36,684 nt of DNA from NCBI GenBank assembly GCA_012103605.1, contig WLWL01000008.1, forward strand, positions 1 through 36,684, given 5' to 3'. Below are positions 9,518-15,497 of this stretch, one piece after another. Below the pieces are notes generated by a model, which did no database searches, was not told where the DNA came from, and was given only the letters and a program-made list of their open reading frames with translations. This DNA is from Candidatus Nanopelagicales bacterium. Lineage in GTDB: Bacteria > Actinomycetota > Actinomycetes > S36-B12. Numbering within the stretch: position 1 is the first letter of the stretch; the number at the start of each line of letters is the position of its first letter. A program made the translations under genes and the position numbers.

Positions 9518-10171
9518 TCAGTTGTCGTCCGGAGCGTAGATATGCAAGTCACCATCTGATCGAGCTGTCAAAAAGATGACCAGAACGATGATGGTTTCGA
9601 TTGTCCACACGGCGAGAGCCAGACGAGGATCGAGTTGGGCGGCGATGACTGCGATGACGGCAACAATCGGCACCAACACCAGATGATGAATCGTGTCTTT
9701 GGTCCATTCCTGACCACCTGGCTCGCTTCGCCCTAGTGCTTGCTGATCGTTTTGGACACTGCGCATGAACCAACCGAGGAAAATCGACACTAGCCCGATG
9801 AGCAACGAGAAGATCTGCAGCACCATCGGCCGCGACAGTTCGAAGGTACTCACCAAGTGGGCGCTGAAAGGGATGAGAGACACCGTCGCGAGAAAAGCGA
9901 AGTTGATGGCGATGGAACGCGAACTGACGAATCGAGCCGACGCTGCGGCGTGATGCTGGAACATCCACAGCCGAGCGAGGATGACGAAGCTGATCAGCCA
10001 CCCGGCGAACGCCTCCCAATCGCTAAGCAGGACCTGGACGACTTCTGTGCCGGGGGCCGGGTCCTCGGGGATCTTGAGCTCTAGTACGAGCAACGTGAGC
10101 ACAATGGCGAAAAGACCATCGGTCAGAGCACCGAGTCGCTCGGATCTGTAGAAGGTGCGCTGTTTGCTCAT
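9518..10171 (-). CDS. TMEM175/DUF1211-family membrane protein, putative K+ channel
   Basis: A 217-aa protein with six hydrophobic segments and the TMEM175 family opening RSERLGALTDGLFAIVLTLL. In characterised members the first helix carries FSDG and lines a potassium-permeable pore; here it reads LTDG, so the Phe and Ser differ while Asp-Gly is kept. Bacterial members form tetrameric leak-type K+ channels. The frame extends 29 codons upstream, but the ATG at 10171 is preferred: it places MSKQRTFYRSERLG before helix 1 and has TTTAAT exactly 6 nt upstream, consistent with a leaderless mRNA. It converges on groEL. Confidence 0.85.
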   Translation of the reverse strand: MSKQRTFYRSERLGALTDGLFAIVLTLLVLELKIPEDPAPGTEVVQVLLSDWEAFAGWLISFVILARLWMFQHHAAASARFVSSRSIAINFAFLATVSLIPFSAHLVSTFELSRPMVLQIFSLLIGLVSIFLGWFMRSVQNDQQALGRSEPGGQEWTKDTIHHLVLVPIVAVIAVIAAQLDPRLALAVWTIETIIVLVIFLTARSDGDLHIYAPDDN

Positions 10172-10177
10172 CAGGGC

Positions 10178-10183
10178 ATTAAA
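10178..10183 (-). promoter_or_regulatory. Putative -10 box for leaderless TMEM175-like gene
   Basis: TTTAAT on the minus strand (5 of 6 to TATAAT), 6 nt before the ATG at 10171. Confidence 0.5.
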
Positions 10184-10214
10184 CCGCCGGTCATAAGGGG
10201 TTGCGGGGACATCC

Positions 10215-10727
10215 GTGTCGATTTGGCACAGTTGCCCCGTGGAGCGATCGTGGAACATCCGGCAAATCGATGGCGCCGACGTCCGGCTGCGCAGCTCTCA
10301 GTCGACCGGCCGCGTGGACGTCGATGTGAGCGCTCCGGTTCGAGCGGGAGACTTGTGGATCCAAGAGACCGACGTTCGGATGAATCTGACGATCGCTCTC
10401 GATCGGATAAAGACAGGCAACTTCCTTACCGACGGTGCGGTCCGGGCCTTCATTTCCGGCTACCGAGCGCACGATCTTGTCTACGCGGGGGCGGGCAACA
10501 CCTCCGGTGAGGCTGCGGAGATCTCGGGACGGGCAAGCGCCGGGACCATCGATACCCAGATAGTGCTCGCCGTGTCGCCGGTGGGAACCGACTGGCAATC
10601 GATGAGTGAGATAGAGATCATCGGCACTGTCGAGTTTGGGCGCGTGCACATTCCGCTGCCGGGGGTCGGAACGGTCGATGATCTCGTGGTCGACATCGAT
10701 GCGCGCCTTGCGGTTATGCCGGCGTAA
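10215..10727 (+). CDS. YceI-like domain protein
   Basis: A 170-aa protein resembling the YceI lipid-binding lipocalin-like fold. It starts with a strand WNIRQIDGADVRLR, has a central strand MNLTIALDRIKTGNFLTDG that matches the YceI pattern ending in a Gly-Asn-x-x-x-Asp turn, and shows alternating beta-strands to the end. There is no signal peptide, unlike many secreted YceI proteins, so it is probably cytosolic. Family members bind isoprenoid or amide lipids; the ligand here is unknown. The GTG at 10215 is used; a GTG at 10239 is also possible. It diverges from the TMEM175-like gene with a 43-nt gap. Confidence 0.6.
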   Translation: MSIWHSCPVERSWNIRQIDGADVRLRSSQSTGRVDVDVSAPVRAGDLWIQETDVRMNLTIALDRIKTGNFLTDGAVRAFISGYRAHDLVYAGAGNTSGEAAEISGRASAGTIDTQIVLAVSPVGTDWQSMSEIEIIGTVEFGRVHIPLPGVGTVDDLVVDIDARLAVMPA

Positions 10728-10751: not shown

Positions 10752-12410
10752 CTAAACCCCGTCCCAGCGCCCTGCGTGCACGTCATCCGCGTCCACGATG
10801 CGATAGCCGTAGCCCTGCTCCGCGAGGAAGCGTTGCCGGTGCTGGGCGAAATCGGCGTCGACGGTGTCGCGCGTCACGATGGAGTAGAAGTGCGCCGTCC
10901 GCCCGTCCGCCTTGGGTCGCAGGATCCGACCGAGTCTCTGTGCTTCTTCCTGACGTGACCCGAAGGTCCCGGAGATCTGAATAGCGACCGCGGCTTCGGG
11001 TAGGTCGATGGAGAAGTTCGCAACCTTGCTGACGACCAGAACGTTTATCTCACCCTCGCGAAACGATTGAAACAGTCGTTCGCGCTCCTTGACCGAGGTG
11101 TCCCCGGTGATCACGGGTGCATCGAGATGAGCGCTCACTTCCGCTAGTTGATCGAGGTACTGACCAATGACCAGCACCTGCTCGCCGGAGTGGTGGGCGA
11201 TGATCTCATCGATCAGACGATTCTTCTCGGGTGTGCAGGCGGCAAGCCGATACTTGTCTTCCGGCTCCGCCATCGCGTAAACCATTCGATCCGGCTCGGG
11301 CATGTCGACGCGGACTTCGACGCAATCGGCCGGAGCGATGTAGCCCTGGGACTCGATCTCACGCCACGGTGCGTCGTAGCGCTTCGGGCCGATCAGGGAG
11401 AAGACATCCGACTCGCGGCCGTCCTCACGAACGAGCGTTGCGGTGAGTCCCAGACGACGCCGACTCTGAATGTCCGCCGTGAATCGAAAAATCGGAGCGG
11501 GCAGCAGGTGGACCTCGTCGTAGATGATGAGCCCCCAATCGCGGGTGTCGAAAACCTCGAGGTGTGGGTAGATCCCTTGCCGCTTGGCGGTCAGCACCTG
11601 ATACGTCGCAATCGTCACGGGGCGGATTTCCTTCTTGGATCCGGAGTACTCACCTATCTCGTCCGCCGTGAGCTCGGTACGGCGAAGCAGTTCGTCCCGC
11701 CACTGTCGGGCCGCAACGGTGTTCGTTACCAAAATCAGGGTCGTTGCTTGGGCTAGAGACATGGCGAGAGCACCCACGATGGTCTTGCCGGCCCCGCACG
11801 GCAGCACCACCACTCCCGATCCGCCGTACCAGAATCCGTCGGCGGCCTCGACCTGATAGTCGCGTGGCTGCCATTCGGCCGTGTCCAGCGCGATGGCGTG
11901 ACGCTCGCCGTCGACGTATCCCGCGATGTCTTCGGCCGGCCACCCGAGTTTGACGAGGGCTTGTTTCAGATGGCCACGTTCACTGGGGTGCACCATCACG
12001 GTCGTCTCATCGAGCCGCGTCCCGAGCAGCGGTGCGATCTTCTTGCTGCGGAGAACTTCTTCGAGAACAGCGACGTCGATGGCTTGAAGGACGAGTCCGT
12101 GGGCAGGATCGTTGGCCAACTGCAGGCGGCCGTAGCGCGCCATCGTTTCCGCAACGTCGACAAGGAGCGCGTGGGGAACCGGGTAGCGCGAGTAACGAAT
12201 GAGTGTGTCGATGACCTGCTCGGCGTCGTGACCGGCTGCTCGCGCGTTCCACAATCCGAGCGGAGTCAACCGGTAGGTGTGGATGTGCTCCGGTGCCCGT
12301 TCGAGTTCAGCGAAGGGCGCTATCGCCTTGCGGCAATCATCGCTGTCGCTGTGCTCGACTTCCAGGAGAAGTGTCTTGTCGCTTTGAACGATCAGTGGTC
12401 CGTCCGTCAC
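10752..12410 (-). CDS. XPB/Ssl2-type DNA helicase (Rad25/ERCC3-like)
   Basis: A 552-aa superfamily 2 helicase of the XPB type. The N-terminal part (about 1-180) includes the damage-recognition-like region. The helicase core shows the Q-like WQPRDYQVEAA, Walker A LPCGAGKT, the DEVH box IYDEVHLLPA, motif III LTATLVREDG and motif VI AQRLGRILRPK. XPB is best known from TFIIH; bacterial and mycobacterial versions unwind DNA 3'-5' and may act in repair. The frame extends 25 codons further upstream, but the GTG at 12410 overlaps the stop of the upstream M20 gene by 4 nt (GTGA) and gives the usual VTDGPLIVQSD start. Its normal partner, the helicase-associated protein, lies 3 kb away at 15502. Confidence 0.93.
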   Translation of the reverse strand: MTDGPLIVQSDKTLLLEVEHSDSDDCRKAIAPFAELERAPEHIHTYRLTPLGLWNARAAGHDAEQVIDTLIRYSRYPVPHALLVDVAETMARYGRLQLANDPAHGLVLQAIDVAVLEEVLRSKKIAPLLGTRLDETTVMVHPSERGHLKQALVKLGWPAEDIAGYVDGERHAIALDTAEWQPRDYQVEAADGFWYGGSGVVVLPCGAGKTIVGALAMSLAQATTLILVTNTVAARQWRDELLRRTELTADEIGEYSGSKKEIRPVTIATYQVLTAKRQGIYPHLEVFDTRDWGLIIYDEVHLLPAPIFRFTADIQSRRRLGLTATLVREDGRESDVFSLIGPKRYDAPWREIESQGYIAPADCVEVRVDMPEPDRMVYAMAEPEDKYRLAACTPEKNRLIDEIIAHHSGEQVLVIGQYLDQLAEVSAHLDAPVITGDTSVKERERLFQSFREGEINVLVVSKVANFSIDLPEAAVAIQISGTFGSRQEEAQRLGRILRPKADGRTAHFYSIVTRDTVDADFAQHRQRFLAEQGYGYRIVDADDVHAGRWDGV

Positions 12411-13513
12411 GCGGCACCCCCGATGGCGGAGAGCAGCCCCGCGAGCAGGCGAGCACGTTCGTCCATGCCGGACACTGACGCCCATTCGTGGTCGGCGTGC
12501 GCACCGTCACCAACGGCGCCGAGCCCGTCGAGCGTCGGTACGCCTGCGGCGGCCGTCAAGTTTCCGTCACTGGCTCCACCGACTGCCCGAGATGACAGTT
12601 CCGGCAGCCCCATGTCGTGAGCCACGCGCTGAGCGCGAGCGAACAGGTGGGCGGACAGAGCAGACTCAAGAGCGGATCGGTCGATGCCTCCGCCGATAGA
12701 CCATGTGGCCTCGGGGTGTTGCAGTTCCCAGGAACGAACGCTCGCATCGACTCGCTCTTGCTCGGCGCGAGTCCAGGCCCGAACATCGACGGTCAACGCA
12801 GCCTCGGCGGGGACGGTGTTGGAGGTGGTGCCGGATGTCATCACGGTGGGGGTCACCGATGTGCCGAGGGAGCGGTCCGCCCACGTGACCGCTTCGGTGA
12901 TGAAGTGCGCGGCTTCGACGGATGCGTTTATCCCGCGCTCGGGGTCCAGGCCTGCGTGCGCTGCACGGCCGGTGAATGTCAGGTGATACCAAGACGTGCC
13001 TTTGCGTTCGGTTTTCAACGCCCCGTCGGCCGATGGCTCGAGAACGAAGACGGCCTCCGCCTGGGTAATGGCTTCGGCGATCAGGTCGCGGGAGGCCATG
13101 GACCCTGTTTCCTCATCGGTCGTCAGCAGCATTCCGCAGGAACCCTCCGGGTGAGCGGACACCATGGACAATGCGGCCCAGCCCTGGACAACCCCCGCCT
13201 TCATATCGAAAACCCCGGGCCCCGTCATTCGATCTCCATTCACCGCAAACGGGATGCGCTCCAGGGTTCCCACCGGCCACACCGTGTCCAGATGCCCGAG
13301 AAGAAGTACCCGAGGGCTCGACGGTCCCCAGCGCCACACGGGTCGGCCACCGTGCCTCTCGATACGGCCTGGCTCGGACAACCATGCGCGCGATAACTCA
13401 TGGGCAGCCTCGACCACCTCCGCACAGGCGGTGAGATCGTCGGTGGGGGATTCGACGGTCACCAGTTGACGGGTCGCGTCGACGAGATCGTCCACGCTGA
13501 GGTGACCGTCCAT
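12407..13513 (-). CDS. M20-family metallopeptidase/deacylase, carboxypeptidase G2-like
   Basis: A 368-aa zinc hydrolase. The metal and catalytic motifs are intact: LLGHLDTVWPVG (first ligand and Asp), GPGVFDMKAG (bridging Asp), TTDEETGS (general base Glu and ligand) and a late GDGAHADHEW (last His). The dimerisation domain starts near WYHLTFTGRAAHAG. M20 enzymes hydrolyse N-acyl amino acids or small peptides. Divergent, 35 nt away, lie a GNAT and an N-succinylamino-acid racemase-like gene. Members of these three families act together in Geobacillus to convert D- to L-amino acids through N-succinyl intermediates, so N-succinyl-L-amino-acid desuccinylase is the best guess. Its stop overlaps the XPB start by 4 nt. 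Confidence 0.85.
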   Translation of the reverse strand: MDGHLSVDDLVDATRQLVTVESPTDDLTACAEVVEAAHELSRAWLSEPGRIERHGGRPVWRWGPSSPRVLLLGHLDTVWPVGTLERIPFAVNGDRMTGPGVFDMKAGVVQGWAALSMVSAHPEGSCGMLLTTDEETGSMASRDLIAEAITQAEAVFVLEPSADGALKTERKGTSWYHLTFTGRAAHAGLDPERGINASVEAAHFITEAVTWADRSLGTSVTPTVMTSGTTSNTVPAEAALTVDVRAWTRAEQERVDASVRSWELQHPEATWSIGGGIDRSALESALSAHLFARAQRVAHDMGLPELSSRAVGGASDGNLTAAAGVPTLDGLGAVGDGAHADHEWASVSGMDERARLLAGLLSAIGGAA

Positions 13514-13536
13514 CGAGTGAGCCTCGTTCCTCTCGC

Positions 13537-13542
13537 TACCGT
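13537..13542 (+). promoter_or_regulatory. Putative -10 box for leaderless GNAT-NSAR operon
   Basis: TACCGT, then 6 nt (GCTGCC), then the GTG at 13549. It lies in the 35-nt gap between the divergent M20 and GNAT genes, so the promoters for the two sides must interlock. Confidence 0.5.
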
Positions 13543-13548
13543 GCTGCC

Positions 13549-14388
13549 GTGAGCGTTGTTGATGATGCCTGGCGGGCTGCCGCGCGAGCCGAAGAGGCTG
13601 CGGGGATATCCATCCGGACCTTGGATGACCCTAATGACCAAGGCATCGCCGTGCGAATCTTCGATGAGGTCTGGCCTCCGGAATCCGGGGCAACCCACGT
13701 GAAGTCGAATCTTCTGCGAGCTCTGGTCCACTCCGGAGGCTACGTCGCTGCTGCGTTCGACGACTCCCAACCGGTGGGTGCAGCACTCGCCGTTGTCGGG
13801 CGGCACCGCGGATCGGGACACGAATCCGAGAGCGGATCACCGGAAGATGCGTCTTCGTGGCACGCACATCTGCACTCGCACATGGCCGGCGTCGTGGATG
13901 GATATCGAAATCGACACGTCGGCACGGCGATCAAATTGCACCAACGAGCGTGGGCGCTTTCTTGCGGGATAGACACCGTGGTGTGGAGTTTCGACCCTCT
14001 CGTGCGTCGCAATGCGCGACTCAACGTGCAGAAACTCGGCACCCACGTGCGGGACTACATGCCCAACTTCTACGGCAATATGGACGACGCCATTAACGCC
14101 GGGGACCCGTCGGACCGTGTCTTTGCGTGGTGGGTTCTTGATGGTGAATCTGCGATCATTGCGGCCCGGGCCCCCATCGCCGATGTCGACCCAGCGGACT
14201 TTGATGAGACCCGCGTCATTGCGATCCCGGACGACATCGTAAGCCTGCGCACGACCGATCCGGACCAGGCGCGTGAGTGGCGGATAAGAGTCCGGGAGCA
14301 GTTTCTCGATGCGTTGGAGCGTGACTTTTCGGTGGTGGGGCTTGATTCGCACGGGTCGTATGTCCTGGCGAAGGGCTCGACCTCATGA
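13549..14388 (+). CDS. GNAT-family N-acyltransferase (COG3375-like), putative amino-acid N-succinyltransferase
   Basis: A 279-aa protein with a GNAT fold in residues about 20-190. The acyl-CoA loop is seen in VDGYRNRHVGTAIKLHQRAWAL, where Arg-x-x-x-x-Gly-x-Ala fits motif A. It is followed by TVVWSFDPLVRRNARLNVQKLG, a segment I associate with the COG3375 proteins that travel with MenC/NSAR genes. It overlaps the racemase gene by 4 nt (ATGA, 14385-14388). In the Geobacillus pathway the GNAT uses succinyl-CoA to N-acylate D-amino acids; I infer the same here from the neighbours. The acyl donor and amino-acid range cannot be read from sequence. The GTG start is supported by TACCGT 6 nt upstream. 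Confidence 0.8.
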   Translation: MSVVDDAWRAAARAEEAAGISIRTLDDPNDQGIAVRIFDEVWPPESGATHVKSNLLRALVHSGGYVAAAFDDSQPVGAALAVVGRHRGSGHESESGSPEDASSWHAHLHSHMAGVVDGYRNRHVGTAIKLHQRAWALSCGIDTVVWSFDPLVRRNARLNVQKLGTHVRDYMPNFYGNMDDAINAGDPSDRVFAWWVLDGESAIIAARAPIADVDPADFDETRVIAIPDDIVSLRTTDPDQAREWRIRVREQFLDALERDFSVVGLDSHGSYVLAKGSTS

Positions 14389-15497
14389 CTATCGATGCTT
14401 TACGCCTGCACTCGTTGCAGATGCCACTGGTGCGGCCTTTCCGCACGAGTTTCGGGACCCAACACGTGCGTGACGTGATGCTGGTCGAGGCCATCGACAG
14501 TGACGGCGTCCAGGGTTGGGGTGAGTGCGTCACGTTGGGCTGGCCGGGCTACAACGCCGAATACACCGCCGGGGCAAAACGGCTGATCAAGGAGTACCTC
14601 GCACCGATTGTTCTGGGTAAGGACTGGACTCCCGACGGCGTTCATGCCGCCATGAAGGTGGTCCGTGGGCACCACATTGCCCGGGCCTCCGTTGGCACCG
14701 CTGTGCTCGACGTGTGGTTGCGTCGCGCCGCTACCTCGCTCGGTGACTACCTCGGAGCGACGCGTGCGGAAGTCGATTGCGGTGTGAGCGTGGGGATCCC
14801 GACATCGGAAAGCACCGAGGAACTCCTCGAAGAAGTGGGTTTGTACGTGGATGCGGGCTACCGGCGCATCAAGTTGAAGATCGAACCCGGGTGGGATATC
14901 AAGCCGGTCGCCGCGGTGCGTGAGCGTTGGCCGACGATTCCGCTTCAGGTTGATGCCAACCAGGCCTATTCGCGGGAGCACGCCCACCACCTGGCCAGAC
15001 TGGACGAATTCGATCTCTTGCTGATCGAGCAGCCGTTGGAAGAAGAGGATTGGTGGGGCCACACGCTTATCGCTCGTGCATGCTCCACCCCGATCTGCCT
15101 GGACGAATCAATCCTGTCGACAGAGTCGGCAGAGTCAGCGATCGAGTTCGGCGCCGCGTCGAACATCAACATCAAGCCGGGCCGGGTGGCCGGGTTTCTC
15201 GAAGCCAAGAAGATCCATGATCTGTGCCTGAGTCGAGAAGTCCCCGTGTGGTGCGGAGGGATGTTGGAGACCGGTATAGGTCGCGCAGCGAATGTCGCTC
15301 TCGCAGCTCTGCCGGGATTCACGTTGCCGGGAGACACGAGCGCATCGAACAGGTACTACGCCGAAGATGTCACCGAGCCCTTCGTACTTCGCGACGGCCG
15401 GCTCGCAGTACCGACCGGGCCGGGTATCGGTGTCGTGCCTATTCCGGAGAATCTCCGGTCGATGAGTGTTGCTGTGGAGGAATTGACGAGTCCCTGA
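14385..15497 (+). CDS. N-succinylamino-acid racemase / o-succinylbenzoate synthase-like enolase-superfamily enzyme
   Basis: A 370-aa enolase-superfamily protein. The catalytic set is complete: K163 and K165 in RIKLKIEPG, D190 and N192 in QVDANQAY, E215 in LLIEQPL, D240-E241 in CLDES, and K264 in NINIKPGR. The positions are within one residue of those I recall for the Amycolatopsis NSAR (Lys163, Asp189, Glu214, Asp239, Lys263). Many members catalyse both racemisation of N-succinyl amino acids and the MenC dehydration. No other menaquinone gene is nearby, while a GNAT (coupled) and an M20 deacylase (divergent) are, so racemisation is favoured. A dual role in menaquinone synthesis cannot be excluded. 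Confidence 0.9.
   Translation: MTIDALRLHSLQMPLVRPFRTSFGTQHVRDVMLVEAIDSDGVQGWGECVTLGWPGYNAEYTAGAKRLIKEYLAPIVLGKDWTPDGVHAAMKVVRGHHIARASVGTAVLDVWLRRAATSLGDYLGATRAEVDCGVSVGIPTSESTEELLEEVGLYVDAGYRRIKLKIEPGWDIKPVAAVRERWPTIPLQVDANQAYSREHAHHLARLDEFDLLLIEQPLEEEDWWGHTLIARACSTPICLDESILSTESAESAIEFGAASNINIKPGRVAGFLEAKKIHDLCLSREVPVWCGGMLETGIGRAANVALAALPGFTLPGDTSASNRYYAEDVTEPFVLRDGRLAVPTGPGIGVVPIPENLRSMSVAVEELTSP

Follow-up and report, generated by a model that had tools for sequence, protein, structure and literature searches.

Three adjoining genes of a Candidatus Nanopelagicales bacterium raise the question of whether this actinobacterium can turn D-amino acids into L-amino acids. The genes lie in the window analysed here, a stretch of 36,684 nucleotides (contig WLWL01000008.1 of assembly GCA_012103605.1). 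A sequence-only reading of the window had proposed that an M20 deacylase, a GNAT acyltransferase and an enolase-superfamily enzyme work together through N-succinyl intermediates. The placing of the three genes in that reading, including the 4-nt overlap and the divergent spacing, was confirmed in the sequence (Table 1). The overlap is an ATGA at 14385-14388 which joins the GNAT stop codon to the enolase start codon; the M20 and GNAT start codons point away from each other. All three ORFs are intact. They are under purifying selection, with dN/dS of 0.05-0.14 within the genus, where dS is unsaturated.

Table 1. Features of the three-gene locus (window positions)
Feature	Position	Strand	Basis or remark
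M20-family metallo-hydrolase, carboxypeptidase-G2-like; putative N-acyl(succinyl)-L-amino acid hydrolase	12407..13513	-	Pfam M20 and M20_dimer
Divergent intergenic region, 35 nt, from M20 start to GNAT start	13514..13548		Same length in near relatives
GNAT acyltransferase, putatively COG3375-like; putative succinyl-CoA:D-amino acid N-succinyltransferase	13549..14388	+	Fold prediction and Foldseek
Predicted enolase-superfamily N-succinylamino acid racemase (MenC by name models)	14385..15497	+	PDB 1sja match, residues, TIGR01928

The enolase-superfamily protein is very probably an N-succinylamino acid racemase (NSAR), judging by its closest relatives and its residues. Its best PDB matches are entries for the Amycolatopsis N-acylamino/N-succinylamino acid racemase, AmyNSAR (1sja-1sjd); the match to 1sja runs over the whole length (429 bits, E 1.4e-127) and retains all catalytic residues. 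In the same PDB sequence search the Deinococcus radiodurans NSAR scored 298 bits, and a deposited o-succinylbenzoate synthase (OSBS; 2okt) only 58 bits; characterised NSARs are thus the nearest in sequence. The KxK motif, the D/E/D metal ligands and the C-terminal lysine expected of the NSAR/OSBS subfamily are all present. The six residues picked out from the sequence earlier (K163, K165, D190, E215, D240 and K264) proved to be invariant columns in an alignment of 27 sequences. R267 occupies the position of R266 in AmyNSAR, which we take to be a second-shell determinant of racemase activity. It had also been predicted that the enzyme would be mislabelled as MenC, and this is the case: TIGR01928, whose NCBIfam name is o-succinylbenzoate synthase, matches at 311 bits. 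The database record of the D. radiodurans NSAR carries the same name.

The name nevertheless suggests a rival role, that of a second OSBS for menaquinone synthesis, and dual NSAR and OSBS activity is common among NSAR/OSBS enzymes. This role is highly improbable here. A complete men cluster lies on contig C17 of the same genome: a single stretch gives matches for menB, menC and menD, and is flanked by menA, menE, isochorismate synthase and menG frames (read from the translations by inspection). The separate menC, at L011:9164-10222, keeps its own catalytic residues. The enolase as sole OSBS of the genome, which would have told against the proposed route, is thereby ruled out; the men genes that the sequence-only reading had suggested looking for were found, including another menC. 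The C17 MenC shares its superfamily and catalytic lysines with the window enolase, but it is only 30% identical to it in the 27-sequence alignment, lacks the KPGR motif and lies among men genes, whereas the window enolase is linked to the GNAT and is not a member of the men cluster. In a search for the futalosine pathway, no match to PF02621 (MqnA/D family) was found in the window genome. The C17-type MenC occurs in 137 of 146 related genomes and the window type of enolase in 88, with both in 85; relatives without the window-type enolase keep the C17-type menC. Correcting the annotation of the window enolase is safe because a true MenC is co-present in nearly every relative. Contamination of the window genome is estimated at 8.55%, and was considered as a source of the two MenC-like genes. 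It is an unlikely one, as is a binning error, because both contigs match the same-genus genome G001 closely (C17 menC at 95%, the window trio at 97-98%).

The other two enzyme classes assigned from sequence, a GNAT and an M20 protein with all metal motifs, are borne out as well. The GNAT had no match in Pfam, NCBIfam or PDB sequence searches, so its class was settled by structure prediction. An AlphaFold model built from 34 homologues reached a pLDDT of 91.6, and Foldseek matched it to GNAT acetyltransferases throughout (Ard1: E 6e-8, TM 0.80 to the target). The CoA motif of the superfamily, RxxGxG/A, is present as R-H-V-G-T-A at residues 122-127. Racemase-adjacent GNATs elsewhere are homologous to it, with identities of 38% in Amycolatopsis, 32% in Streptomyces, 31% in D. 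radiodurans and 26% in Lysinibacillus.

The M20 protein matches carboxypeptidase G2 with E 7e-37. Its metal ligands and catalytic residues (H74, D103, E134/E135, E159 and H339), including the catalytic glutamate, align with those of 1cg2. It is 50% identical to the racemase-adjacent M20 proteins of Amycolatopsis and Streptomyces. Against the M20 proteins of Bacillales clusters, taken from clusters other than the G. kaustophilus locus, the best match is 30% over 83 residues (E 7e-6) and the others have E values of 0.002 or worse; the Lysinibacillus cluster M20 is of the TIGR01891 amidohydrolase type (269 bits). By these matches the window M20 is assigned to the carboxypeptidase-G2-like subfamily, which it shares with the M20 proteins of Amycolatopsis and Streptomyces, unlike the amidohydrolase-type M20 of Bacillales clusters. 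In a GTGA at 12407-12410, the M20 stop codon runs into a GTG that is likely to be the true start of an XPB helicase gene. The ORF list places the XPB start at 12485, which is probably too early. The two genes may be translationally coupled and expressed together.

Conservation of the gene order in tens of related genomes is far beyond chance. The order xpb-M20-GNAT-enolase-Helicase_C_3 is found, whole or up to the contig limit, in about 30 genomes. GNAT and enolase occur together in 85 genomes and are both missing from 53, so that 138 of the 146 are concordant; several of the eight discordant genomes reflect contig ends, and kinship is ignored in these counts. A GNAT profile search gave 80 named records; the enolase adjoins in 74 of them and the M20 in 39. 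Candidatus Nanopelagicales and acI records are among them, and these names suggest an aquatic actinobacterium of that order as the source of the window. In genus g27 (L042 and L043), M20 and GNAT are adjacent and the racemase is on another contig.

Homologous loci are found in more distant organisms. In A. pretoriensis, an enolase 85% identical to AmyNSAR has homologous GNAT and M20 neighbours on one strand, and Kibdelosporangium aridum has the trio on one strand with an enolase 75% identical to AmyNSAR. The window differs from Amycolatopsis in its divergent layout beside the xpb helicase gene. All three genes are found together on Lysinibacillus and Streptomyces plasmids. In D. radiodurans, the NSAR (PDB 1r0m, encoded on plasmid MP1) is 43% identical to the window racemase and has a homologous GNAT downstream; unlike in the window, transporter binding-protein genes lie between the two and the M20 is absent.

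It could be argued that only GNAT and racemase form a functional unit, and that the M20, a mere neighbour co-expressed with XPB, whose gene it overlaps, acts on its own as a hydrolase of N-acyl-amino acids or peptides. This M20 is indeed missing from 23 of the 85 genomes with the pair, and it occurs without the pair in g7, a genus of the same family. However, it is present in 62 of the 85 pair-bearing genomes and in only 6 of the 61 others (three of these six have the GNAT). It also adjoins the pair in layouts that are unrelated to one another: divergent in the window, on the same strand in Amycolatopsis, Streptomyces and Kibdelosporangium, and in G013 (L055) reordered with all three genes on one strand. 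Since independent layouts hold the same members, a functional link among the three is indicated and an unconnected M20 is quite unlikely.

Within such a linked trio, the GNAT-racemase pair is the tight unit and the hydrolase looks exchangeable, because some genomes have the pair without the M20 and others the M20 without the pair. An amidohydrolase-type M20 is found in 16 of the 23 pair genomes lacking the window-type M20, compared with 26 of the 62 which have it (p 0.03 in a test that ignores kinship). As a substitute for the missing M20 it is only a hint; 25 of the 61 genomes without the pair also carry it, and seven of the 23 have neither type. The window genome has no amidohydrolase-type M20. 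No substitute hydrolase was recognised among the neighbours of the pair in L045, L049 and L051. L049 and L051 belong to a family of small genomes (f6, probably acI) in which the pair lies by fatty-acid synthesis genes, without M20; PAP2 and transporter genes are also among its neighbours. In genus g7 (L149 and L150), M20 is kept between xpb and Helicase_C_3, and GNAT and racemase are gone. Tentatively, different M20 subfamilies may have supplied the hydrolase on two or more occasions, a carboxypeptidase-G2-like one in Actinomycetota and an amidohydrolase-type one in Bacillales, with small-genome aquatic actinobacteria of the same order running the pair without a linked hydrolase, either together with another deacylase or as a different pathway.

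The three genes, encoded together in a genome which does not need the racemase as its OSBS, are likely to specify a route in which D-amino acids are acylated, racemised and deacylated to L-amino acids. In its favour are the identities of the genes, their intact frames, the conserved residues, the synteny and co-occurrence, and the separate MenC. We infer the substrates, stereoselectivity, direction and physiological use of the route as follows. The GNAT would acylate a D-amino acid at its amino group, most likely with succinyl taken from succinyl-CoA. The racemase would then take off and return the alpha proton by means of the lysine pair K165/K264 and a metal-bound enolate, according to the known two-lysine chemistry (PMC8142540). 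A mix of N-acyl-D and N-acyl-L forms would result. The M20 would cleave the N-acyl-L form to L-amino acid and free acid, which would drive the sequence one way.

Given the promiscuity of NSAR enzymes, acetyl could take the place of succinyl; the GNAT would then use acetyl-CoA, and racemase and M20 would act on N-acetyl amino acids. The nearest relatives of the GNAT in fold are acetyltransferases. Tyr324 of the window enolase (15354-15356) stands at the position of Phe323 in the Amycolatopsis racemase, and a variant chain of the latter, 4a6g_A, likewise has Tyr there. N-acetylmethionine is racemised by AmyNSAR as well, albeit poorly (PMC8142540). Succinyl, however, is the acyl group of the known three-gene route. 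The kcat/Km of characterised NSARs is much higher on N-succinyl than on N-acetyl substrates (PMC8142540). The acetyl variant is accordingly considered unlikely, and succinyl is preferred.

D- to L-amino acid conversion through N-succinyl intermediates was reportedly described in Geobacillus kaustophilus by Sakai and colleagues in 2006, and that route is said to rely on enzymes of the same classes as those here (a GNAT, an NSAR/OSBS-type enolase and an M20 hydrolase). The sequence-only reading had equated the two. The equation holds for the enzyme classes, and is strengthened by their co-occurrence, the separate MenC and the trio beside an AmyNSAR orthologue; it may not extend to the M20, which is not close to the M20 proteins of other Bacillales clusters and is separable from the pair. 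The genes of those other Bacillales clusters are also on one strand, unlike the divergent genes of the window. That the gene set is a further instance of a known pathway, with the hydrolase point modestly new, is well supported.

Peptidoglycan-derived D-amino acids are known to contribute to aquatic organic matter. The route may serve to salvage them, whether from peptidoglycan or from dissolved organic matter, a capacity that is masked when the racemase is labelled MenC. A gene set that is widespread in aquatic actinobacteria, but misnamed, is thus given a testable function. Elsewhere in the window, a gene for a TMEM175-family protein (potassium-channel family) is found on the minus strand at 9518-10258, between a chaperonin gene and xpb.
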